A program made the position numbers and the translations under genes. Shown here in pieces: positions 18,573-61,948 of a stretch of DNA of 64,000 nucleotides. The stretch is from Paludibacteraceae bacterium (GTDB lineage Bacteria; Bacteroidota; Bacteroidia; Bacteroidales; Paludibacteraceae). The stretch's first letter is position 1. Each line of letters starts with the position of its first letter. The stretch spans positions 1 through 64,000 of the forward strand of contig JAFSTO010000049.1 of NCBI GenBank assembly GCA_017450435.1, in the 5' to 3' direction. Below the pieces are notes generated by a model, which saw nothing but the letters and a program-made list of their open reading frames with translations, ran no database searches and was not told the DNA's origin.

Positions 18573-18609
18573 GTAGAGACGGTGTTGTACACCGTCTCTC
18601 AAAGCGTGG
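18573..18609. repeat. Dispersed repeat, hairpin form (identical to 52749-52785)
   Basis: A 37-base unit beginning GTAGAGACGGTGT and ending ACACCGTCTCTCAAAGCGTGG, with an 11-bp perfect stem (AGAGACGGTGT/ACACCGTCTCT) around a TGT loop. An identical 37-base copy lies at 52749-52785. Both copies are between convergent genes. Confidence 0.9.
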
Positions 18610-52748: not shown

Positions 52749-52785
52749 GTAGAGACGGTGTTGTACACCGTCTCTCAAAGCGTGG
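52749..52785. repeat. Dispersed repeat, hairpin form (identical to 18573-18609)
   Basis: The same 37 bases as at 18573-18609, with an 11-bp perfect stem and TGT loop. Flanks hold GTAC-rich phrases (CGTACACGT, ATGTACGATG upstream; GGTACTTGGTCACTTGTTCAC downstream). It lies between convergent genes and may serve as a two-way terminator. Confidence 0.9.
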
Positions 52786-52841: not shown

Positions 52842-53954
52842 TCATTTAAACCTCTGCCAAAACGAAGTATCCTTCTCATTGTTTGCTTTCTTAGCCTGCT
52901 CAACAGAGGTCGGATAATTCTCGATAAACCACGTAAAGAAAGCCGTAACATCAATCTTATCGGCAAGCATTCGCTGACGCCGTTGCTGCCACTCTTCGCG
53001 GAGATTTGGCATAGCGAGCAGCTCTTCTATCTTTGCATAGAGCTTGTAGGGCTCACGCGACGAGATTCCATACGTTAGTCCATACACGTGTTCCAGTTCC
53101 TCCATTACACCAATCTTCTTTTTCCCAACGAAGTCGTTGAACCTCAATGACGGAATGCCTAACATTGCCGCCTCTACAGCCATTGACTGTGAGTCGCCGA
53201 TATACAAAGTAGCGAACGCCATGAGATGGTGTATATCAAGCGGATTGATATGCATACGATACTGTTCGAACTGCGGTTCAAGCTCGCGCTCTGACGTGAT
53301 AAGAATACGCCCATGCGGTGCAAGGATGTCAATGAGATGTTGAGCGACCTCTGTGGTGATACCTTGTACTCCAACATCGTGATGCGCTTTCAGACTGGCG
53401 AAACGGAAGATGAAATATGGTCGGTCGGGGTCTATTTGGTATTGTTCCACAATTTTTCTATCCGGAGAGAAACGTTTCGGATGCAGATATGCAAGTTTCT
53501 GGAATCCGGGATATTTAGTCGATTTAATATCCCATCGACCATTGTTGCAGCTATCCGGTGTTAAGACACATGAGGCAAATGGATAGACCAATTTCGCAAA
53601 ATTAGGCACCACATCGGCATCATCTTCTCCCATAGCAATCACTGATATACGATTAATTTTAGAAGCAGTAAATGATAAAGTTGAACCTATTAATATATCA
53701 ATCTTGTTTCGTCGAAGAAACTGCCACATATGATATTCCATTCCTAACACAGACCTTATAAGTCCTATTTTAGAACCGGTTCGACCCTCGCGAATTTTGA
53801 AGTATTTAAATCCAGCATTCTGGCACAAGGTCTCTAGGATGTCTTTTTTCTTAATCACAAAGAACACCTCATGACCGTGCACCTTCAACCCCTCTGCAAC
53901 ATATTTTAGCATATGGAAATGTGCAGGATGTCCAAAGAACAATGCAACTCTCAT
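52842..53954 (-). CDS. DUF354 family glycosyltransferase-like protein
   Basis: A 370-residue protein with the start pattern MRVALFFGHPAHFHMLKYVAEGLKVHGHEVFFV of the DUF354 family, which has a GT-B glycosyltransferase-like double Rossmann fold. FIFRFASLKAHHD (about 186-198), RILITSERELEPQF and the C-terminal YIGDSQSMAVEAAMLGIPSLRFNDF (about 248-272) correspond to the nucleotide-sugar side. Relatives occur in surface polysaccharide loci. It is the last gene of the acyl-modification cluster, 19 bp after the KAS III gene. Donor and acceptor are unknown. Confidence 0.8.
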   Translation of the reverse strand: MRVALFFGHPAHFHMLKYVAEGLKVHGHEVFFVIKKKDILETLCQNAGFKYFKIREGRTGSKIGLIRSVLGMEYHMWQFLRRNKIDILIGSTLSFTASKINRISVIAMGEDDADVVPNFAKLVYPFASCVLTPDSCNNGRWDIKSTKYPGFQKLAYLHPKRFSPDRKIVEQYQIDPDRPYFIFRFASLKAHHDVGVQGITTEVAQHLIDILAPHGRILITSERELEPQFEQYRMHINPLDIHHLMAFATLYIGDSQSMAVEAAMLGIPSLRFNDFVGKKKIGVMEELEHVYGLTYGISSREPYKLYAKIEELLAMPNLREEWQQRRQRMLADKIDVTAFFTWFIENYPTSVEQAKKANNEKDTSFWQRFK

Positions 53955-53973
53955 TTCTCCGCAATAAATTAAA

Positions 53974-54969
53974 TTATTTAATCTTCAACATTACTCCACC
54001 CCATGACAAACCAACACCAAAACCTGCTAAAAGTACATTGCCATGCAGTTTTCCTTCACGGCGAGCCTCTACCATCGCAATCGGAATCGTTGAGCTGACG
54101 GTATTGCCTACATGTTCCATGTATAGGTAGAATTTTTCTTTGTCTATATCCAGTAGTTTACGCAAATAGTTAATCATGTATTTGTTAGCTTGGTGGAATA
54201 TCCATAAATCCACATCATCTTGAGCAACTCCACTCTTTTGCAACAACTCATTTACCATCGGTGGCACCACATCGGCAGTAAAATTGAAGACATTACCTCC
54301 GTGCATATACAGATAATCGCCACTGACAATTCCTTCATCCTCGTCCATCCGCAAGTCATTGAGCAGACCTTTGTGACGAGCACCAAGGCTCCGCACAATC
54401 AGGTTATCAGCACCACTCCCATCTGTACCAACAACCACTTCTCCGATTTCTGCAAATCCTTCTGTTGATATAAGTGATGCAGATGCTCCATCACCAAAGA
54501 TTGTGCGATTACCCTTATCTTTCGGATGAATATATTTCGTATAGGTTTCAGCCGTAAGTAATAGTATATTTTTCGCAGTACCAGAAAGAATCAGCCCTTT
54601 GGCAATTGCTAATCCGTACTCATATCCGGAACAACCAAGATTAAAATCCAACGCTCCACAATGCGTACTGAGCCCTAAACGATCTTGTAACAAACAAGCA
54701 GATGATGGCAGAAAATAATCGCCACTCTGCGTGCATAGTAACACAAAATCTATGGTTTTTCTGTTTATTCCTTGTGCAAAGAGACGTTCAGCAGCTTGAA
54801 AGGCCATATCCGTGGCAGTCTCATTTGGAGCAGATATATGGCGTTCCGTGATTCCTACTTTGTTTGCTACTTTTTCAGCCGACCATTCTGGAAACTCTGC
54901 GGCTATCTGTTCATTTGTTAATACTTGCTCCGGCAAGTAATAAGCTATATCTTTAATAAATGCTTTCAT
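53974..54969 (-). CDS. KAS III-like 3-oxoacyl-ACP synthase
   Basis: A 331-residue thiolase-fold condensing enzyme of the FabH type. Catalytic residues are complete: Cys near 113 (LGCSGYEYGL), His near 259 (WIFHQAN) and Asn near 289 (EHVGNTVSSTIP). FGDGASASLI (about 158-167) is the usual FabH loop. FabH-type enzymes join a short acyl-CoA to malonyl-ACP. Because this copy sits beside its own ACP and reductase in a glycan cluster, it is more likely specialised than the housekeeping fabH. The product is probably an acetoacetyl-like ACP thioester (inference). Confidence 0.9.
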   Translation of the reverse strand: MKAFIKDIAYYLPEQVLTNEQIAAEFPEWSAEKVANKVGITERHISAPNETATDMAFQAAERLFAQGINRKTIDFVLLCTQSGDYFLPSSACLLQDRLGLSTHCGALDFNLGCSGYEYGLAIAKGLILSGTAKNILLLTAETYTKYIHPKDKGNRTIFGDGASASLISTEGFAEIGEVVVGTDGSGADNLIVRSLGARHKGLLNDLRMDEDEGIVSGDYLYMHGGNVFNFTADVVPPMVNELLQKSGVAQDDVDLWIFHQANKYMINYLRKLLDIDKEKFYLYMEHVGNTVSSTIPIAMVEARREGKLHGNVLLAGFGVGLSWGGVMLKIK

Positions 54970-54993
54970 TACAAATATTCATTATAATTTACT

Positions 54994-55554
54994 TCATATC
55001 AAAGCACTAAAATCCGCAGCTATCTTCATTGGGTTTCCTTTGGCTAAAGCACAATCAGGAATATCCTTATCCACAACCGTACCGGCAGAAACAATGGCGT
55101 TCTTACCTATCGTCACACCACGTAATATAATAGCCCCATCTGCAACCCATGCTCCTTCCTTAATCACCACTGGAGACACTCCGGATTCAACTACATTTTT
55201 AAAATGTCCATACGGGTTACTATGCGCTAAAATAGTTACATTACCCGCCAAAGACACATTATCCTCAATATATACATATTCCGGATATGCATTGTCTATC
55301 GTGCAATGAAGTCCAATGTACACATTCTCTCCAATTGTGACCCCACGTCTTCTATTCCAACGCACCCTGAATTTATTCAACGGACATCTATATGACCATC
55401 TGCTTAAGATAATATTCCGAATCTTCCGCAATGCAAAACGCATTGGACTCATCTTTCTGCGGGAACTGGAATTTTGTATGGTCTTTCTTAGACTCGAATC
55501 ATCATGGTCGAAATATGGAATCGAGATCGCTTCTCTTATTGTGTATTCCTTCAT
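54994..55554 (-). CDS. Left-handed beta-helix acyltransferase (hexapeptide repeat)
   Basis: A 186-residue transferase. The N-terminal 50 residues are charged. The hexapeptide-repeat helix runs from about 70 (GVTIGENVYIGLHCTIDNA) to 175 (GVTIGKNAIVSAGTVVDKDIPDCALAKGNP). ILAHSNPYG (about 111-119) holds the His usually acting as base in the acetyltransferase active site. It is the second of two similar acyltransferases in tandem (14 bp after the first) and their aligned N-terminal halves suggest duplication. Such enzymes move acetyl or 3-hydroxyacyl groups to sugar hydroxyls or amines. Confidence 0.9.
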   Translation of the reverse strand: MKEYTIREAISIPYFDHDDSSLRKTIQNSSSRRKMSPMRFALRKIRNIILSRWSYRCPLNKFRVRWNRRRGVTIGENVYIGLHCTIDNAYPEYVYIEDNVSLAGNVTILAHSNPYGHFKNVVESGVSPVVIKEGAWVADGAIILRGVTIGKNAIVSAGTVVDKDIPDCALAKGNPMKIAADFSALI

Positions 55555-55568
55555 TTCCTCTATGCATT

Positions 55569-56099
55569 TTAGTTCATTAACTCTCTATATTCCAGTACTT
55601 TCTTTGCAGGAACGCCTTTTACCATCGTATAGTCAGGTACAGATTTCTCCACTACGCTTCCTGCGCTTACTACCGCGTTCTTTCCTATGGATACTCCCGG
55701 CATGATAGTACACCTGACTGCAACAATCGCTCCCTCTTTAATCAACACCGGTGCCATCTGCGCTTGGAAGATAGGAGCATATCGCTTCATTGGGTTAAAA
55801 TGCGTTAGGATCATCGTTCCGGCATTCACACTCGCATTATCCTCAATATAGATATACTCAGGATGGAGATTGTCCAAAAAACAGAACATTCCTAAATAGA
55901 CATTCTTGCCAATATGTACTCCACGTCGACGATGCATCCATTGCCGCAGTTTATTATTCGGACATGCATATGCCATCAGCATATAAATTGTATTACGTAT
56001 CTTTTGCATCTTTTGCACAAATGTCCGTTTCTGCGTTTCTTCGTAATATGGCACATTTTGTGCAGAAAGGATCTCCGGATATTGTTCAGAATTCATCAT
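55569..56099 (-). CDS. Left-handed beta-helix acyltransferase (hexapeptide repeat)
   Basis: A 176-residue paralogue of the gene at 54994. The shared core includes RRGVHIGKNVYLGMFCFLDNLHPEYIYIEDNASV (about 58-92), ILTHFNPMK with the active-site His near 104, and GVSIGKNAVVSAGSVVEKSVPDYTMVKGVPAKKV at the C-terminus. Its ATG overlaps the deacetylase stop by 4 bp, so translation is coupled. Two similar enzymes next to each other suggest two acceptor positions or two acyl donors. Confidence 0.9.
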   Translation of the reverse strand: MMNSEQYPEILSAQNVPYYEETQKRTFVQKMQKIRNTIYMLMAYACPNNKLRQWMHRRRGVHIGKNVYLGMFCFLDNLHPEYIYIEDNASVNAGTMILTHFNPMKRYAPIFQAQMAPVLIKEGAIVAVRCTIMPGVSIGKNAVVSAGSVVEKSVPDYTMVKGVPAKKVLEYRELMN

Positions 56100-57001
56100 G
56101 ATTGAATAATTTTATTATCTTTAATCATACAAAATTCTCCTCCTCGTTCGCTCCAAAATTTCAGTTCCTTCTCCAACAAAGTTAAGGCTCTATGATCCAA
56201 ATTTCGTAATTTAACCTTTGCTCTCAACACATCTGACAACAAATATCCTAATTTAGACTGTGCTCTATGTTGCGGAGTATACTCTTCTTCTATTTCCTGC
56301 ACCGCTTCACTAGGATGATAAAGGAAAGTTATAGGGGTATCTTTTTGTTGGCTCTCCCAGTATAATAATCTCCTTGTCATAGGTAATAAGGAGTACGGCG
56401 CAATACGCATAACAGTACCAATATACGGGACACCATATGACGACACCGGTACTTCTACAATTCCTGATTTACCTTTTCGGGCCAGATTATCAATGGCCGT
56501 TTCGTAAATAGCTCGCGGTGCTTTCAGCCATTGCTTTTTATTAGCACCCAATGACATAAAAGCATCCATACGTTGCGGTGCCACACTGCTGTCAAACTTA
56601 AATCCGGCCTCACGCAATGCCATCGGAGTATCACTATTAACTCGTAGGGCAGGAGCACGGAACGAAACCACTTCCTGACCTCCTATCTGTTCTAACAAAT
56701 CCTTCGAATGACGTAATTCGGCAATCTGTTCCTCTAATGTCATCATATCGAATGCGCTACGATAATCATGCTGATAGCCATGCGAACCCACTTCTTGACC
56801 ATGAGCCACAATCTGTTTGACGATATTAGGCTTCAATTCTGCTAGTTGCCCCAACACAAAGAAAGTAGATCTTACCTCGTATTTATCATACAGTTCCAAC
56901 AAACGAGGCAGGCCATCCTCGTCAACCTGCTTCGCAATTCGTTTCCATACTGCGCCACTTACGCTGGTATGCTCTACATCGTTGGAAAAAAATACTTTCA
57001 T
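56096..57001 (-). CDS. Polysaccharide deacetylase (NodB-like)
   Basis: A 301-residue protein with the NodB deacetylase barrel. FFSNDVEH (about 4-11) is the first metal-binding motif in the NDVE form seen in polysaccharide-cluster deacetylases. STFFVLGQLAE (about 45-55) and GSHGYQHD (about 72-79, the H-x-x-x-H motif) follow, with SFRAPALRVN (about 112-121) and FLYHPSE (about 230-236). It would remove an N-acetyl group from a sugar, possibly freeing an amine for acylation by the neighbouring transferases (inference). Its stop overlaps the next gene's start. Confidence 0.88.
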   Translation of the reverse strand: MKVFFSNDVEHTSVSGAVWKRIAKQVDEDGLPRLLELYDKYEVRSTFFVLGQLAELKPNIVKQIVAHGQEVGSHGYQHDYRSAFDMMTLEEQIAELRHSKDLLEQIGGQEVVSFRAPALRVNSDTPMALREAGFKFDSSVAPQRMDAFMSLGANKKQWLKAPRAIYETAIDNLARKGKSGIVEVPVSSYGVPYIGTVMRIAPYSLLPMTRRLLYWESQQKDTPITFLYHPSEAVQEIEEEYTPQHRAQSKLGYLLSDVLRAKVKLRNLDHRALTLLEKELKFWSERGGEFCMIKDNKIIQS

Positions 57002-57004
57002 CTA

Positions 57005-57724
57005 TTACAATGTTTGTGCTCCTCCCGTTAATTCAAAATTACTACCGGTCACCCATGCAGCCTCATCCGAAAGTAGATACACCACCATCGGTGCTATATC
57101 TTCCGGTTGACCATATCGTTTCATCGGGTAAGCTTTTTCTGCTTCATGCAATTGATCTTCCGAAGCACCAACCAATGCCAGATCCGTCCATACCATTGTA
57201 GGACTGATGCAGTTCACGCGAATCTTCCTTGATGCCAGTTCCAGAGCCAGACACTTAGCATACGCAATCATCGCAGCCTTGGATGCACTGTAGATTCCGT
57301 TCCCAACACTCGGCATGGTAGCAGCAGCGGAAGCAATAAAGACGATAGATGCTTCTTTGGCGATTTTCTTCTCTCGCAGCAACTCTGCCTGTAGCAACAC
57401 CGGAGCTTCGAAATTTACGTTCATCACATGACGCACATCTTCAAGCTCCAGCATCTTGCCTAACACACGGCTGCCGATACCGGCACAATGCACAACCCCG
57501 TCTAATGGAGGTAATGCATCCACTAACGATTGCCGCTGCGCATTATCCGTTAAATCAGCTGGAATAATGATGTGCTCATCCCTCTCCATCAAAGCACGGG
57601 TATCTTCGAGACGCTCAATGTTGCGACCTGTCAGAACAACTTGTAGTCCTTTTTTTGCACAAGCAATAGCTATAGCGCGCCCAATGCCCGATGATGCACC
57701 TGTTACTAAGATTGTCTTAGCCAT
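57005..57724 (-). CDS. FabG-like short-chain dehydrogenase/reductase
   Basis: A 239-residue SDR. TGASSGIG (8-15) is the NADP loop; the catalytic set is Ser near 132 (FIASAAA), Tyr near 145 and Lys near 149 (YSASK). The usual NNAG is HCAGIG here. C-terminal ending TGSNFELTGGAQTL matches FabG-like reductases. It would reduce the 3-oxoacyl group on the adjacent carrier protein to 3-hydroxyacyl. Start ATG overlaps the ACP stop (TAATG), a strong sign of coupled expression. Confidence 0.9.
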   Translation of the reverse strand: MAKTILVTGASSGIGRAIAIACAKKGLQVVLTGRNIERLEDTRALMERDEHIIIPADLTDNAQRQSLVDALPPLDGVVHCAGIGSRVLGKMLELEDVRHVMNVNFEAPVLLQAELLREKKIAKEASIVFIASAAATMPSVGNGIYSASKAAMIAYAKCLALELASRKIRVNCISPTMVWTDLALVGASEDQLHEAEKAYPMKRYGQPEDIAPMVVYLLSDEAAWVTGSNFELTGGAQTL

Positions 57725-57948
57725 TATAACTTACTTTGTACCAAATCATAAACGTCTTTGATTGTCACAGCAGCTTTGAGTTCCGCCGGAGCAACTTTGA
57801 CACCATATTTTTTAGCAATCATGTTGAGAATGGCCAGTCCGGTCAGACTACTCCACTCCTCTAATTCATGAAACTCGCACTCGGGGGTGAACTCATCTAA
57901 ATCCGTTTCATCCCACTGTGCAGCAAAATTTTTAATAAACTCTTCCAT
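57724..57948 (-). CDS. Acyl carrier protein (dedicated, cluster-type)
   Basis: A 74-residue acidic four-helix carrier. The phosphopantetheine site is EEWSSLTGL, with Ser near 34 in place of the usual DSL context; W before it is typical of non-housekeeping carriers. ATG at 57946-57948 was chosen over a longer frame to 58020, whose extra residues overlap a repeat-like sequence and do not resemble ACP. It lies directly after a truncated acyltransferase and overlaps the reductase start by one base. Confidence 0.87.
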   Translation of the reverse strand: MEEFIKNFAAQWDETDLDEFTPECEFHELEEWSSLTGLAILNMIAKKYGVKVAPAELKAAVTIKDVYDLVQSKL

Positions 57949-57988
57949 AACTATTAAATTAATTTTTATCTTCTTCTTTTCAATATCT

Positions 57989-58180
57989 TTACGCCCCACG
58001 TTCCGAGCTTGTAGAGACATAGTTTTGCGTAATCATCAAATCATCAGAAATATACACATTCTTCACCACGTCATATCTCATGGCACGTAAACTTCTTGCA
58101 CGTACCTTGGAGAACGGAAAGTGCACACCAATCTTATAAATGAGTTTATTTCGGATTCTGGTATAAATTTTACGTATCAT
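57989..58180 (-). pseudogene. Truncated hexapeptide acyltransferase, N-terminal remnant
   Basis: About 63 residues remain, from MIRKIYTRIRNKLIYKIG to VVKNVYISDDLMITQNYV, which matches the beginning of cluster acetyltransferases with a hexapeptide repeat. The remainder, including every catalytic repeat, is missing and the frame stops soon after. The break is followed by GTCTCTACAAGCTCGGAACG (minus strand), similar to a dispersed-repeat end (GTAGAGAC), so a repeat may have replaced or deleted the rest. It is first after the cluster promoter. A genuine short peptide is possible but unlikely. Confidence 0.65.
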
Positions 58181-58274
58181 CACTAAACTAAATTTTAATA
58201 TTGCTTCAAGGTTTAGTCACTCATTTCCTTAACAATTTATAGTTTTGCAACAGCTGTTAATTCAATAGCGGTTG

Positions 58275-58305
58275 CAAAATTAGAATAGTAATTTGGATTA
58301 TACAA
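58275..58305 (-). promoter_or_regulatory. Promoter of the ACP/KAS III cluster
   Basis: Minus strand: TTG, 20-base spacer, TAATTTTG (58275-58282). TTTTGCAAC (58243-58251) and GTTGCAAAA (58271-58279) form a 9-bp inverted repeat overlapping the -7 region and start site, a possible operator. Leader to the remnant gene is about 90 bases. Confidence 0.65.
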
Positions 58306-58348: not shown

Positions 58349-58510
58349 TTACCGTCTGACACCCCACGTACCTTGTTCCTTTGTACTTAAAACCTTCGTA
58401 CATCGTACATTTGCCCTTCGTACTTTTGAGAGACGGTAAGCACCGCGCCTTTTAACCGCCCCAATTACCGTCTCTACCCTTGGGCGAAACAAGGTCAGTA
58501 CTTGTTCACT
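58349..58510. repeat. Dispersed intergenic repeat, copy 7 (longest)
   Basis: Contains TTACCGTCTGACACCCCACG, GTAC-rich phrases (CTTCGTACATCGTACATT), and a hairpin with perfect 11-bp arms AGAGACGGTAA (58429-58439) and TTACCGTCTCT (58465-58475). It ends ACCCTTGGGCGAAACAAGGT. It fills most of the 334-bp gap between the FemAB-like gene and the ACP cluster promoter. Confidence 0.8.
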
Positions 58511-58517
58511 TGGTACA

Positions 58518-59480
58518 TTACAGCAACCTTAACCCTAATGAGCCGAGCGAATAAAGGAGGCGGTTATTCACACGCAGGAATCGGCCAAATTCCTTCAGTT
58601 CGCCCCCGAACTGCAACTTGAAATCACGTACGCCGTAATGTTTGCCGGGTTCGCCGGCGCCCATAAGGTCGAAGAGCGGAAGATTATGTCGGTTAGCATA
58701 ATCCATAGCAGCCCACGTGACAATAGGCGGACCGACAACGTACCATTCATAGAGCGTTTTACCTGTCAAAAAAGGGCATAACATTCCGCCGATAATCGTC
58801 CCCCCATGTCGTGCCAACAGCAGAACTCCTTTTTTATCGGCTACAAAGGTAGTAAAAAAAATCAAGTCAAACAACGGTTTATGAATTTTTTCTTTGTACA
58901 ACCTGCACAACAGCTGATAAAACTCAACAACCTCTGTCTCCGAAGTAGCTTCTACTATTTCCACTCCCTCGTCTATTGCTCGGCGTATCCGCCTCATCTT
59001 ACTATCATTGACACGGCTCTCCATCATGCTTCGGTCTGAGCATGTGATATGCATATCAAAATGTGGCTTATATGCAAATCCGCATTGCTCGAAGACTGTG
59101 CGCCAGCGGCTATAATCGCAGAAATTGCGCGTCTCGGTATAAATAGCTTTCCTCAACGTAAACGAAACTACAGCTCCAAGCATTGCCTTCAACTCGTCAT
59201 CAGTTATATCCTCTGCCAACAACGGCCCCCCAACGATGATTGCCCGTCGCGTAAAATACTGCTTCAAGAAGTTCCTCTCCTGTGTGACGTAACCGACCAC
59301 AACTCCTTTTAAGTTCTCACCACGAGAGACTGCAAAGGCAAATGGCGTCATCTGTGAAGGAACAGACGCATAAAAGTCATACGCCTCCGGCGTCTGAAAC
59401 CACGAAGCAACCGAGGAAGAGTCAACAAGTTGTTGCCACTGTTCGTTGTCAATATCCCTGTATGTTGTATAAACGTTCAT
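58518..59480 (-). CDS. FemAB-like GNAT-fold transferase
   Basis: A 320-residue protein of the FemAB/GNAT-like type often found in capsule and exopolysaccharide loci. The first half has ASWFQTPEAYDFY and FCDYSRWRTVFEQCGFAYKPHFDMHI; the second has MRRIRRAIDEGVEIVE, ARHGGTIIGGMLCPFLTGKTLYEWYV (about 224-250) and DLMGAGEPGKHYGVRDFKLQFGG (about 274-296), the conserved C-terminal block. It may transfer an amino acid or acyl group to a surface polymer. A GTG four codons upstream is possible; the ATG at 59478-59480 is used. Confidence 0.8.
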   Translation of the reverse strand: MNVYTTYRDIDNEQWQQLVDSSSVASWFQTPEAYDFYASVPSQMTPFAFAVSRGENLKGVVVGYVTQERNFLKQYFTRRAIIVGGPLLAEDITDDELKAMLGAVVSFTLRKAIYTETRNFCDYSRWRTVFEQCGFAYKPHFDMHITCSDRSMMESRVNDSKMRRIRRAIDEGVEIVEATSETEVVEFYQLLCRLYKEKIHKPLFDLIFFTTFVADKKGVLLLARHGGTIIGGMLCPFLTGKTLYEWYVVGPPIVTWAAMDYANRHNLPLFDLMGAGEPGKHYGVRDFKLQFGGELKEFGRFLRVNNRLLYSLGSLGLRLL

Positions 59481-59514
59481 TCCCGTCACCACCGGCGTAT
59501 TCTCTTCTCAGTTA

Positions 59515-60465
59515 TCACTTTACAATCTTGTTATATATTTCCCGAACGCAGTGTGCCACATGCTTGTTATCCAGACCTCCTGATATGATTCTGCTTCTAC
59601 CGTCGGTCTTTCCGTTAAACGCCAATGCCTGACCAAGTAGTAGAGCCAAATCCTGCGGTTGGCGCGAGTGGGCAACAAAACAACCTTTTATTCCCTCTGT
59701 CCTTTCCTTCACATCTCCCACATCCACACTCACTACCGGGCATCCGCACGCCATAGCTTCCTTTACCACCTGTGGCGAGCCTTCAGTCTTGGATGTGAGT
59801 AGCAAAGCGTCTGCAGCGCACATAAGCAGCGTTACCTCATCGCGATTGTAGCCCTTGAGTTCAATGAGATGCACATTAGTGTTTTCTGATAACGCATAAG
59901 CATCGTTGTGGGTTAGTTCAGCTACGGCAACCTTGGCTAACGGCGCGTTCTTGACCTGATTATCAAAGGCACCCGCAAAAAGGATGTACTTCGCATCGGG
60001 CGACAGACACATCTGCTCACGAGCTTGTTGTTTGTCTGTCAGTTGTAAATCATTCAAATCCACTCCACACGGCAACAAGGAAAAACAACGATGCGGATGT
60101 GCTATTTTCATCGTTGCTGCAGACACGAAGATATTCCATTGAGAAAGCATCATCGATAGTTTAGAAAACGTCCTTGGTATCTTGTTGTTGATATCCGACC
60201 CATGATATGTTGTCACCACCGGTGTCCTTCTTTGCAGGTTAGCCAACAATCCGCTCAAACCGTAGTGAGCATGAATAACATCAGGCTTATACTCGGCTAT
60301 TTTTCGCATCAGAGCAGGGAAGGCGGAAATATATCCGGAAATGCCCTTTCCTGTTACCCCGAACCAGTCTATCTCACAGCCTTCTCTCTGCAAAGCCGCC
60401 GCCTGCTCCTGTATGAACGGAGCGAAACGTTTTTTGTTATATGACGCTACGATAAGTACTCGCAT
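59515..60465 (-). CDS. Family 4 glycosyltransferase
   Basis: A 316-residue GT-B enzyme. MRVLIVASYNKKRFAPFI opens the N-terminal domain, with VIHAHYGLSGLLA and TYHGSDIN following. The C-terminal domain contains ILFAGAFDNQVKN, LLLTSKTEGSPQVVKEAMACGCPVVSVDVGD (about 240-270), where SPQVVKEAMACG is the donor-phosphate motif of GT4. A longer frame to 60543 overlaps the upstream membrane gene. It is likely part of the polysaccharide assembly unit. Confidence 0.9.
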   Translation of the reverse strand: MRVLIVASYNKKRFAPFIQEQAAALQREGCEIDWFGVTGKGISGYISAFPALMRKIAEYKPDVIHAHYGLSGLLANLQRRTPVVTTYHGSDINNKIPRTFSKLSMMLSQWNIFVSAATMKIAHPHRCFSLLPCGVDLNDLQLTDKQQAREQMCLSPDAKYILFAGAFDNQVKNAPLAKVAVAELTHNDAYALSENTNVHLIELKGYNRDEVTLLMCAADALLLTSKTEGSPQVVKEAMACGCPVVSVDVGDVKERTEGIKGCFVAHSRQPQDLALLLGQALAFNGKTDGRSRIISGGLDNKHVAHCVREIYNKIVK

Positions 60466-60499
60466 AATCATGAATAAAGCAGCTAAAGGCAGAGTATTT

Positions 60500-61948
60500 C
60501 TATAGTCCGCGTCCACGCAACTTGAACCAGTTCCACCCGACAAAAGCCAAGAACATCAACAAGGTCCAGTAGTTGTATAATCTCTTTTCGCGTGGGTGCT
60601 TAATCACCTCGTACATTCCGTAAGCTGAGAACATCAGCATAAAACAAACAATAGGCATGTGGAAACGCTCAGCTTGCGCGAAGTTACTAAATGCCAACAC
60701 GACAAGATACCCGCCATAGTAAGCACCGGTCAGGACATATTTACGCCACTCGCCGGAGAAAATCAGAGTAAACAGACTATAGATAACGAATCCGGACATT
60801 ATGTTCTTCACAAAGTTTCCGCCATGAATAAGACGCTGGTTCTCCTGATTCGGGAGATTTGTTGCAGAAGGGAACGGAAGTGTGAATATCATCGGGGCGA
60901 ACACTATTGCTCCTGCGTACTTAGCGAAGCGATTAGCACCGGCTGAGCTGGAACGTGTGGAGCGCCACTGCATTGCCTTCTGCTGCTCTTCCACCACATT
61001 ATGGGTTGTCAGTTCACGAACCTCACTCTCCAAACGTCCGCCTACCATTGACAAGAGAAGCAATCCAGCAATTAGAATCATAATGATACGTTTGCCCCAA
61101 TCGACCACCCTATCCGTTGTGATAGTCAATGCCGTGAGCAATGCCAAAATTGTTACAGCGCCCAAGACGGTTCGGAAAGTGAACAAGGTGAGCATACAGA
61201 TAGCCATCGGCACCATCTTCCACACATTGAACTTCTTGAGACGCATAACCTGGTCAGCCTGTTCGATAGCCACGACAGCAAGGAAACACATCTCCGTCTC
61301 CTTAAGGTGCAGACCGCAATAGAGAATCAGATTTGGCATTAGCATACAGAAGATACCCGTCATGCGCCCCACCCCTTCGCCGAAATTGCGAGTGGCAAGT
61401 CGCGACATAATAAGGGCAGTAACCGCACTTAAGAACGCCTTTATAAACCGCACAACGAGCAGACTGTCACCTGTAAGCCAATACACAAAGCCGAGATAAG
61501 CCGGATAGCCCATATCAGAGAAAGCTATTTTGCCACTGGTATATTTATTACAAATATCATACACCGCAAAATTACCTTCCCTAAAATTTTCCGAAAGAAC
61601 TCTACCCATATCATCGTAGAACAAAACGTCACCGGCAGAGAACTCGAAGTGCTCGCCTGTCATGACGAAATAGAACCAATAGGAGAACAACACCCACACA
61701 GCTCTTATACCAAATGCTGTCCAAAAGAGTCTCTTCTCAAAAGTTTTGGTAGTAAGCCTTGCCCACGACCGAGTCAGCCTGTTAGATACGTAAAAAAAGC
61801 CGACGACCTCAACAACGCCAAACACATAAAAATACCACTCCATGGCATAACTCATAAACCATAGAGTAACAACAGCCAACGCCGCAAAATAAATCATAAT
61901 GGCGCGGTTGCTAACCCACTTGGGCATATATGCAAGAGGTTGCTGCAT
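60500..61948 (-). CDS. Polytopic membrane protein, GT-C glycosyltransferase-like
   Basis: A 482-residue membrane protein with about 10-12 helices. After the first helices a loop with GDVLFYDDMGRVLSENF (about 106-122) and FSDMGYPAYLGFVYWLTGD (about 142-160) matches the acidic first-loop layout of GT39/GT83-type lipid-linked-sugar transferases; VVRFIKAFLSAVTALIMSRLATRNFG follows. Such enzymes add sugars on the periplasmic face from polyprenyl-phosphate donors. O-antigen polymerase is the main alternative. It is the first gene in the run with the GT4 and FemAB-like genes. Confidence 0.65.
   Translation of the reverse strand: MQQPLAYMPKWVSNRAIMIYFAALAVVTLWFMSYAMEWYFYVFGVVEVVGFFYVSNRLTRSWARLTTKTFEKRLFWTAFGIRAVWVLFSYWFYFVMTGEHFEFSAGDVLFYDDMGRVLSENFREGNFAVYDICNKYTSGKIAFSDMGYPAYLGFVYWLTGDSLLVVRFIKAFLSAVTALIMSRLATRNFGEGVGRMTGIFCMLMPNLILYCGLHLKETEMCFLAVVAIEQADQVMRLKKFNVWKMVPMAICMLTLFTFRTVLGAVTILALLTALTITTDRVVDWGKRIIMILIAGLLLLSMVGGRLESEVRELTTHNVVEEQQKAMQWRSTRSSSAGANRFAKYAGAIVFAPMIFTLPFPSATNLPNQENQRLIHGGNFVKNIMSGFVIYSLFTLIFSGEWRKYVLTGAYYGGYLVVLAFSNFAQAERFHMPIVCFMLMFSAYGMYEVIKHPREKRLYNYWTLLMFLAFVGWNWFKLRGRGL

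Follow-up and report, generated by a model that had tools for sequence, protein, structure and literature searches.

An acyl carrier protein, a reductase and a glycan-type ketoacyl synthase form a portable module, predicted to build a short 3-hydroxyacyl group, in a Paludibacteraceae glycan locus

A 64,000-nt stretch of DNA from a gut Paludibacteraceae bacterium (positions 1-64000 of contig JAFSTO010000049.1, here C33, of assembly GCA_017450435.1; hereafter the window) carries a cassette of eight genes in which an acyl carrier protein (ACP), a short-chain dehydrogenase/reductase (SDR) and a type III ketoacyl-ACP synthase (KAS III) lie among genes for glycan synthesis. The source metagenome-assembled genome (MAG) measures 2.65 Mb and is 96% complete. 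According to the original prediction, made from the sequence of the window, the three proteins are a dedicated set that supplies a glycan with a short 3-hydroxyacyl group, and the group is attached to an amino sugar freed by a deacetylase encoded in the same cassette. The comparisons described here support the dedicated set, through linkage seen from two sides, the clade of the KAS III and published analogues. Attachment to the freed amine is unproven; it is favored by the absence of aminotransferase genes near the deacetylase and by the pairing of the latter with one acyltransferase type, and disfavored by deacetylase loci that lack a KAS III and by the likeness of the acyltransferases to O-acetyltransferases.

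Results

The ACP, SDR and KAS III genes stay together

Linkage was measured from both ends of the trio. A KAS III relative was encoded in 222 of 237 candidate stretches, and the best 80 loci were retained; the closest relative among them, from another Paludibacteraceae MAG, is 86% identical to the window protein. On the same strand and within 4 kb, the KAS III gene is accompanied by the ACP gene in 75 of these 80 loci, by the SDR gene in 67 and by both in 64. Eleven of the 16 loci without the full pair keep the ACP, and three others (L029, L043 and L062), at contig ends, keep the SDR. A second search, anchored on the ACP so as to avoid the bias of a KAS III anchor, covered 393 genomes of the order (E ≤ 1e-10) and returned 26 places in 25 genomes, the window's own locus included. 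At the 25 other places a KAS III and an SDR gene are each found 23 times (same strand, within 4.5 kb). The KAS III scores above 300 bits against the window protein in 11 of the 25, the remaining ones being further removed from it; the ACP family thus works with several types of KAS III. Exceptions that count against the linkage are rare: L041 and L050, the latter near a contig end, have neither ACP nor SDR beside the KAS III, and L168 is a true case of an ACP without a KAS III; the other such case, L183, ends at a contig end. We conclude that ACP, SDR and KAS III genuinely form a portable module, whose ACP and KAS III stay linked across neighborhoods; separate occurrence of these two, which would have spoken against the original prediction, is confined to the few exceptions. 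Cultured gut carriers of the trio with one KAS III include Bacteroides fluxus (L031) and Parabacteroides distasonis (L021).

The whole cassette was also considered as a fixed unit. This was rejected, since related loci retain much of the set in a changed gene order (L011, L012, L014, L016, L030, L037 and L040).

Besides the cassette genes, the source genome encodes separate AcpP, FabG and FabF proteins. The housekeeping AcpP (L123), above the TIGR00517 cut-off, adjoins FabF on contig C22; the housekeeping FabG on C41 (L131; TIGR01830, 324 bits, cut-off 297.75) is distinct from the cassette SDR.

The KAS III falls in a glycan-type clade

The KAS III passes the general model PRK09352 (262 bits, cut-off 249) and scores 242 bits against TIGR00747, the model for housekeeping FabH, under its curated cut-off of 292.1. 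Among solved relatives 3gwa is the best, at 349 bits, and the chain after it has 179. A tree of 132 rows was built by a quick method without bootstrap, with rows shorter than 290 aa dropped (L109 among them). In it, a group of 88 rows with a Shimodaira-Hasegawa-like support (SH-aLRT) of 99 holds the window protein together with all 80 anchors and the enzyme of Burkholderia glumae. A separate group, also at 99, holds 17 of the 18 rows from other families of the order that exceed the TIGR00747 cut-off; the eighteenth, L108, has a long branch and an unsure place. The B. glumae member of this VioS-like group is encoded beside vioA; the Pseudomonas syringae VioS is absent from the tree.

Residues separate the two groups as well. 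At positions equivalent to W32, R36, R151 and F87 of Escherichia coli FabH, with the Trp contacting the adenine of CoA and the Phe acting as a gate, the canonical rows carry W/R/R/F in 18, 18, 18 and 17 of 18, and the anchors K/K/K/L in 79, 80, 80 and 80 of 80. The window protein has Lys33 and Leu87 in place of the Trp and the Phe. The catalytic triad Cys113-His259-Asn289 is kept in 80/80. These replacements suggest a changed CoA pocket in the clade, and on score, clade and residues the cassette KAS III is classed as glycan-type and not as housekeeping FabH.

Congeners appear to live without canonical FabH

The original prediction was held open to refutation if the KAS III proved to be the genome's only fabH. 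Literally this is so, no other protein of the MAG matching TIGR00747 over its full length; the objection loses its force since the whole genus seems to live without a canonical FabH. The TIGR00747 cut-off is reached in none of 37 genus genomes, the source genome included, and in none of 71 that are at least 90% complete (the source genome and 70 congeners), 34 of which lack any FabH match even at E 0.001. Other families of the order have a FabH above the cut-off in 18 of 24 genomes. FabF turned up in 59 of the 61 genus genomes searched for it, 56 times above the cut-off, and five genomes (G004, G010, G027, G032 and G034) have FabF and no FabH match at all. Unless a FabH escapes the model through divergence, the genus appears to be without the canonical enzyme; with FabF kept, fatty acid synthesis seems to start by another route. 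YiiD_C, considered as an alternative starter, had no match in the source genome and, among 14 controls, matched only in E. coli. KAS III proteins of the cassette type are patchy in the genus (above 230 bits in 7 of the 71 genomes): the cassette enzyme is not the shared housekeeping starter, though it may also help in its own genome. In L092, L093 and L103 the genes run rpmF-fabH-era; within the 12 kb examined around the source genome's own era, on C37, neither fabH nor rpmF adjoins it, and the cassette KAS III lies elsewhere (rpmF and era, like Lon, thrS, WecB and the aryl-polyene genes, were named by eye, with no family search behind the names).

The deacetylase and one transferase type occur together

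The cassette also encodes a CE4-type deacetylase and two left-handed beta-helix (LbH) acyltransferases, LbH1 and LbH2. A close homologue of the deacetylase (above 200 bits, within 6 kb) is present in 9 of the 80 KAS III loci. A DegT (VioA-like) aminotransferase gene within 10 kb, sought with the B. glumae VioA as single query, occurs in 0 of these 9 and in 31 of the 71 others (Fisher test, 0.011; the Fisher tests reported here treat the loci as independent, although they share ancestry). When only loci of at least 19 kb are taken, the counts are 0/8 versus 23/40 (0.004). With the same query, neither the window nor the further part of C33 as far as position 77999 yielded a match at E 0.001, and no VioA-like aminotransferase was seen among the family-searched open reading frames (ORFs) of the locus. 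One WecB query over the same range likewise found no epimerase, although 21 of the 80 related loci have a WecB-like gene at a distance of 10 kb or less.

In the LbH tree, from which rows under 120 aa or 60 bits were dropped (the split LbH of L013 among them), LbH1 belongs to a group with support 99/97. The LbH2 type is found in 8 of the 80 KAS III loci, and all eight have the deacetylase; the four loci with LbH1 and no LbH2 (L015, L032, L039 and L042, the contigs of all but L039 being short or cut) have none (Fisher test, 0.002). L018 has the deacetylase and a different LbH.

A deacetylase-anchored search (E ≤ 1e-40) found the gene in 14 of the 393 genomes, the source genome included, and yielded 14 neighborhoods outside the latter. 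A DUF354 relative is present in 14/14, some of them weak at 37-74 bits; KAS III and SDR genes are present in four each and a clear ACP in one. One of the four KAS III proteins, that of L163, is FabH-like. LbH genes occur in nine of these neighborhoods, and membership in the LbH1/LbH2 clades, entered by hand from the tree, was compared with module labels from the neighborhood search: the clades are found at 3/3 loci with the module and at 0/6 others (Fisher test, 0.012), or at 3/3 versus 1/6 if L163 is counted as module-bearing (0.048). Thus a polysaccharide core (deacetylase, DUF354 and often GT4) stands without the acyl line, and an acyl line that is plugged in tends to bring a particular LbH type. 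Because the LbH1/LbH2 clades track the module, the LbH proteins would use its ACP-borne product; this is our best evidence on the point, from small samples.

Loci of this kind contain a second acyl module, 'B' (L018 11829-15022, L163 7169-11367, L159 4783-6102 and L032 6398-8488), with a different SDR and its own LbH clade. It includes a KAS III in L018, L163 and L032, those of L018 and L163 being above the FabH cut-off and that of L032 cut by the contig end. A family with an RHDV/RHDI motif, deacetylase-like by eye, also lies near the deacetylase (L016 13084-13878, L040 13096-13848, L018 11005-11817 and L163 8563-9414).

Protein families and catalytic residues

Most predicted catalytic residues are conserved. 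The SDR family has Asn104, Ser132, Tyr145 and Lys149 in 68, 67, 68 and 68 of 68, and LbH His100 is present in 30/30 (L017_19633, L037_7966 and L018_3504 excluded from this count). In the ACP site, E-W-x-S-L, Ser34 is invariant (77/77), Trp32 is found in 76/77 and position 33 is Ser instead of Asp in 58/77. The deacetylase keeps Asp8, His74, His78 and His229 in 24/24. The original prediction, that all checkable catalytic residues are present, holds for these proteins and the KAS III save at one position of the deacetylase: the first CE4 motif, usually TFDDG with an Asp as base, reads NDVE in this family. An invariant Glu10 next to Asn7 may replace the base Asp.

Scores against the narrower models are low. 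The deacetylase scores 112.7 bits with TIGR03006, the equivalog of the XrtA system (cut-off 276.2), and 44.8 with the NodB model (cut-off 240). LbH1 and LbH2 (PF00132 E values in Table 1) reach 50.2 and 48 bits with TIGR03570 (PglD/VioB/NeuD), under the subfamily cut-off of 160.8. The gene predicted to encode a DUF354 protein is present; its match to PF04007 (14.5 bits) is under the gathering score of 22, a search with its alignment gave no solved relative with an E value up to 1, and it is likely a divergent DUF354 relative. This protein and the membrane protein of the locus were assigned by genomic context. The truncated acyltransferase of the original prediction is indeed a short ORF, of 64 aa, whose acyltransferase identity is weak: it has no Pfam or NCBIfam match, no match in 60 congeners and an E value of 0.02 to N-termini of the LbH2 type. 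It was rejected as a working acyltransferase, being far too short.

Organization of the locus

The eight ORFs run head to tail on the minus strand from 58183 to 52842 (Table 1), with the place, strand and families that had been predicted, in the order LbH-like remnant, ACP, SDR, deacetylase, LbH1, LbH2, KAS III, DUF354-like protein. For the ACP we used an inner ATG at 57948, which gives a protein of 74 aa as in its relatives, instead of the 98-aa ORF. The coordinates bear out the two predicted overlaps, of 1 nt between ACP and SDR and of 4 nt between deacetylase and LbH1; the remaining gaps are 3-40 nt. The single promoter predicted for the run would be a Bacteroidetes-type site upstream of it. 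Farther upstream lie three genes, for a FemAB-like protein, for a glycosyltransferase of family GT4 and for a membrane protein without a match in a Pfam search; the downstream neighbor reads as lon.

Table 1. Features of the cassette and of the genes directly upstream (window coordinates).
Positions	Strand	Feature	Evidence
58275..58305	-	Promoter-like site, Bacteroidetes-type, TTG-20 nt-TAATTTTG	Found by eye
57989..58183	-	64-aa remnant, probably N-terminus of LbH acyltransferase	Weak match to LbH2-type N-termini
57724..57948	-	Dedicated ACP, 74 aa, E-W-S-S-L phosphopantetheine site, Ser34	PF00550, E 2.2e-5
57005..57724	-	FabG-like SDR, predicted 3-oxoacyl-ACP reductase	PF13561, E 3.2e-51
56096..57001	-	CE4-type polysaccharide deacetylase, XrtA/PdaB-like, NDVE first motif	PF01522, E 4.2e-21
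55569..56099	-	LbH1 hexapeptide acyltransferase	PF00132, E 1.1e-12; own clade 99/97; His100
54994..55554	-	LbH2 hexapeptide acyltransferase	PF00132, E 4.4e-11; tree; co-occurrence with deacetylase
53974..54969	-	KAS III, glycan-type (VioS-like) clade	PF08541, E 1.7e-26; tree; residues
52842..53954	-	DUF354-like protein, probable GT-B-type glycosyltransferase or related enzyme	PF04007, sub-threshold
58518..59492	-	FemAB/GNAT-like transferase	PF02388, 21.1 bits (cut-off 24); PF13480, 17 bits (cut-off 22)
59515..60543	-	GT4 glycosyltransferase	PF13692, E 1.9e-13
60500..61948	-	Membrane protein, possible polymerase (labeled WZY by us)	Relatives in related loci

The GC content at third codon positions is 0.34-0.45 in the cassette genes versus 0.48-0.55 in the three upstream genes; among 11 other window genes measured it is 0.50-0.61 in ten and 0.44 in the eleventh. 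The low values are compatible with acquisition and do not prove it. Two of three window copies of a REP-like palindrome, GAGACGGT...ACCGTCTC (18576-18598, 52752-52774 and 58430-58474; none in shuffled sequences), flank the cassette. The pair was rejected as the cassette's own borders because the pattern recurs genome-wide, with 53 matches per strand, at least two of them overlapping, versus none for a reversed control; some copies have a longer, similar loop (AATTGGGG...CGCTT). Elsewhere in the source genome, L121 (G000:C71) and L122 (G000:C24) are, by eye, aryl-polyene/flexirubin-like clusters with their own ACPs and ketosynthases, and an SDR of the FlxB type is encoded on C11 (L132).

Discussion

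A proposed pathway and its alternatives

From the observed gene set, catalytic residues, linkage and KAS III clade we infer substrates, chain length, acyl linkage, target sugar and export. We think it somewhat probable that the cassette builds a C4 3-hydroxyacyl-ACP, that LbH2 places the acyl group on an amine freed by the deacetylase and that LbH1 makes a second transfer. The KAS III would condense malonyl, carried by the dedicated ACP, with a short acyl starter (acetyl being the likeliest) to give a 3-oxoacyl-ACP (acetoacetyl-ACP from acetyl), which the SDR would reduce to the 3-hydroxyacyl-ACP, here 3-hydroxybutyryl-ACP. Because there is one KAS III and neither a dehydratase nor an enoyl reductase was recognized in the cassette gene set, the chain would stay at one extension. 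The deacetylase, probably cytoplasmic since no signal peptide was seen by eye, would expose the amine of a nucleotide- or lipid-linked N-acetylated sugar; LbH2 would re-acylate this amine from the ACP and LbH1 would perform a second acyl transfer, perhaps O-linked, while the GT4, DUF354-like, FemAB-like and membrane proteins would build the surface glycan. In two published cases one KAS goes with a C4 and two KAS with a C6 group, so that the number of KAS may set chain length; by this rule, which is our own, a cassette with a single KAS III suggests a C4 group if acetyl starts.

Several observations weigh against parts of this pathway. Both LbH proteins are more like maltose/galactoside/WcaF O-acetyltransferases than like PglD/VioB N-acyltransferases, the nearest solved relatives of LbH2 being maltose/galactoside O-acetyltransferases. 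Support for the LbH2-type group is modest (86/88), and among its members is L017_19633, a long branch whose locus has no deacetylase and which was left out of our statements on LbH clades. Ten of the 14 deacetylase-anchored loci, some of which are cut by contig ends, showed no KAS III; the deacetylase thus does not necessarily work with the acyl group. Among the three module loci of that search a clear ACP is present only in L158 (64 bits), L167 having a 20-bit match and L162 stopping at a contig end; in L158 the KAS III is divergent (201-215 bits) and a ligase-like and a second ACP-like gene adjoin. The shared ancestry of the loci, the Asn at the position of the CE4 base (Asn7, in 24/24) and the Trp-to-Lys change in the KAS III, which may mean a starter other than acetyl-CoA, belong here too.

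These points give room to other explanations. Both LbH proteins might O-acylate sugar hydroxyls with the module's 3-hydroxyacyl group while the deacetylase acts on this glycan for some other purpose, as in loci that lack the module. This is unlikely in our judgment and still deserves real weight: it accords with the O-acetyltransferase resemblance, with deacetylase and DUF354 genes standing without KAS III and with the four loci that have LbH1, lack LbH2 and lack a close deacetylase. It does not account for the presence of the deacetylase at all eight KAS III-anchored loci with the LbH2 clade, for the absence of DegT as a source of amine near the deacetylase, or for the LbH proteins of the six module-less deacetylase loci, which fall in other clades. 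N-linkage is favored by the tie between LbH2 and deacetylase and by the missing aminotransferase, O-linkage by the resemblance to LacA, Maa and WcaF; neither is proven. It is rather improbable that the KAS III uses another starter (propionyl, butyryl, branched or acyl-ACP) to make a longer or branched 3-hydroxyacyl group, or that the SDR is idle and a 3-oxoacyl group is transferred. The Leu and Lys that replace the presumed gate and CoA-binding Trp in nearly the whole clade would suit a different starter, and 13 of 80 KAS III genes lack an SDR within 4 kb; yet the SDR catalytic residues are intact, and the known precedent with one KAS III and one SDR makes, in the part of the report available to us, a C4 3-hydroxybutyryl sugar (PMC3927599). 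That the KAS III is a replacement FabH starting ordinary fatty acid synthesis, its placement in a glycan locus being secondary, would fit its standing as sole full-length match in a genus without canonical FabH. Nevertheless we regard it as very improbable: some congeners keep FabF with no FabH match whatsoever, and the clade combines linkage to glycan loci with non-FabH residues. As a housekeeping FabH proper, the protein was rejected on cut-off score, clade, residues and the FabH-less congeners.

Relation to known systems

Sets of a KAS III, an ACP and a reductase dedicated to a glycan are already published. The viosamine island of P. syringae pv. tabaci is described as comprising the KAS III gene vioS, the reductase gene vioR, acp, vioB and vioA, and its flagellin sugar as a 2-O-methylated Qui4N with a 3-hydroxy-1-oxobutyl amide; vioR deletion removed the modified viosamine from flagellin, and the roles of vioS and acp were assigned by homology (PMC3927599, as far as the accessible text goes). 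Like the cassette, the island pairs one KAS III with an ACP, a reductase and an acyltransferase, and puts 3-hydroxybutyryl on an amino sugar; as described there, it differs in a flagellin glycan, an amine supplied by the aminotransferase VioA and VioB as transferase, where the cassette has a deacetylase (PMC3927599).

Within the same phylum, the O-polysaccharide locus of Flavobacterium psychrophilum encodes an ACP (wfpD) and two KAS (wfpC and wfpE), with wfpF for a reductase and wfpG for an acyltransferase. Together they are predicted to build and attach the 3,5-dihydroxyhexanoyl group that nuclear magnetic resonance showed (PMC6519341, sections consulted). The locus shares with the cassette the dedicated ACP, KAS and reductase for a hydroxyacyl group of a surface glycan; it differs in its two KAS, the C6 dihydroxy acyl, a PglE/PglF amino sugar and a PglD-type acyltransferase, and those sections name no deacetylase alongside wfpC-wfpG (PMC6519341). 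Eight Flavobacterium loci in our sample (L076, L077, L081, L083, L085 and L087-L089) carry a two-KAS version in the order ACP, KAS, SDR, KAS, transferase-like gene, which resembles the wfpC-G set; Flavobacterium johnsoniae (compare L087) has a related module of this sort.

On pBGF3 of B. glumae, a vioA-KAS III-ACP-SDR-acetyltransferase set adjoins flagellin and fliD genes. Its KAS III and SDR are 50% and 36% identical to those of the window, its ACP had no BLAST match at E 0.01, and its transferase aligns to the LbH proteins over only 51-93 residues; unlike this set, the cassette has neither vioA nor a flagellin setting.

In the rhizobial Nod factor system (nodB, nodE, nodF, nodG, nodA and nodL), the CE4 deacetylase NodB frees an amine, a dedicated ACP, KAS and reductase build an acyl chain and a transferase attaches it. 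The logic of deacetylase, own acyl line and transferase is that of the cassette; NodE is a KAS II-type enzyme, however, NodA is not an LbH protein and the acyl group is long and unsaturated. In XrtA/PEP-CTERM exopolysaccharide loci, FemAB and GT4 proteins are partners of a deacetylase. The cassette locus is similar in its TIGR03006-related deacetylase with FemAB-like and GT4 neighbors, while the deacetylase itself scores under the equivalog cut-off of that system.

The cassette thus has KAS III, ACP and SDR together in a glycan locus, in the manner of VioS/VioR/Acp and WfpC-F, and shows no VioA/PglE-type aminotransferase in the part of C33 that was searched. What looks new is the absence of an aminotransferase near the close deacetylase, the LacA/Maa-like transferases and the tracking of the deacetylase by LbH2; narrow term searches of the open-licence literature found no deacetylase-coupled form with a LacA-type LbH.

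Implications

Taken further, and as a tentative idea that could well prove wrong, surface glycans of Bacteroidales may undergo an acyl exchange like that of Nod factors: a cytoplasmic deacetylase would strip the N-acetyl group, a cognate LbH would refill the amine with a custom 3-hydroxyacyl group supplied by the dedicated ACP line, and a second LbH would acylate another site. The acyl line would be a plug-in with its own LbH clade and a length set by KAS III number. For annotation, general models give glycan-type KAS III and FabH the same name; the two are told apart by the residues K33/K37/K152/L87, found together with an unbroken Cys-His-Asn triad. The antigenic type of a surface glycan can depend on the acyl groups that its amino sugars carry, and in F. 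psychrophilum R-groups have been tied to antigenic differences (PMC6519341, in the sections consulted). A portable and recognizable module would allow gut Bacteroidales with 3-hydroxyacyl glycans to be predicted from sequence, and the pairing of deacetylase and LbH2 suggests a second, aminotransferase-free route to acylated amino sugars.

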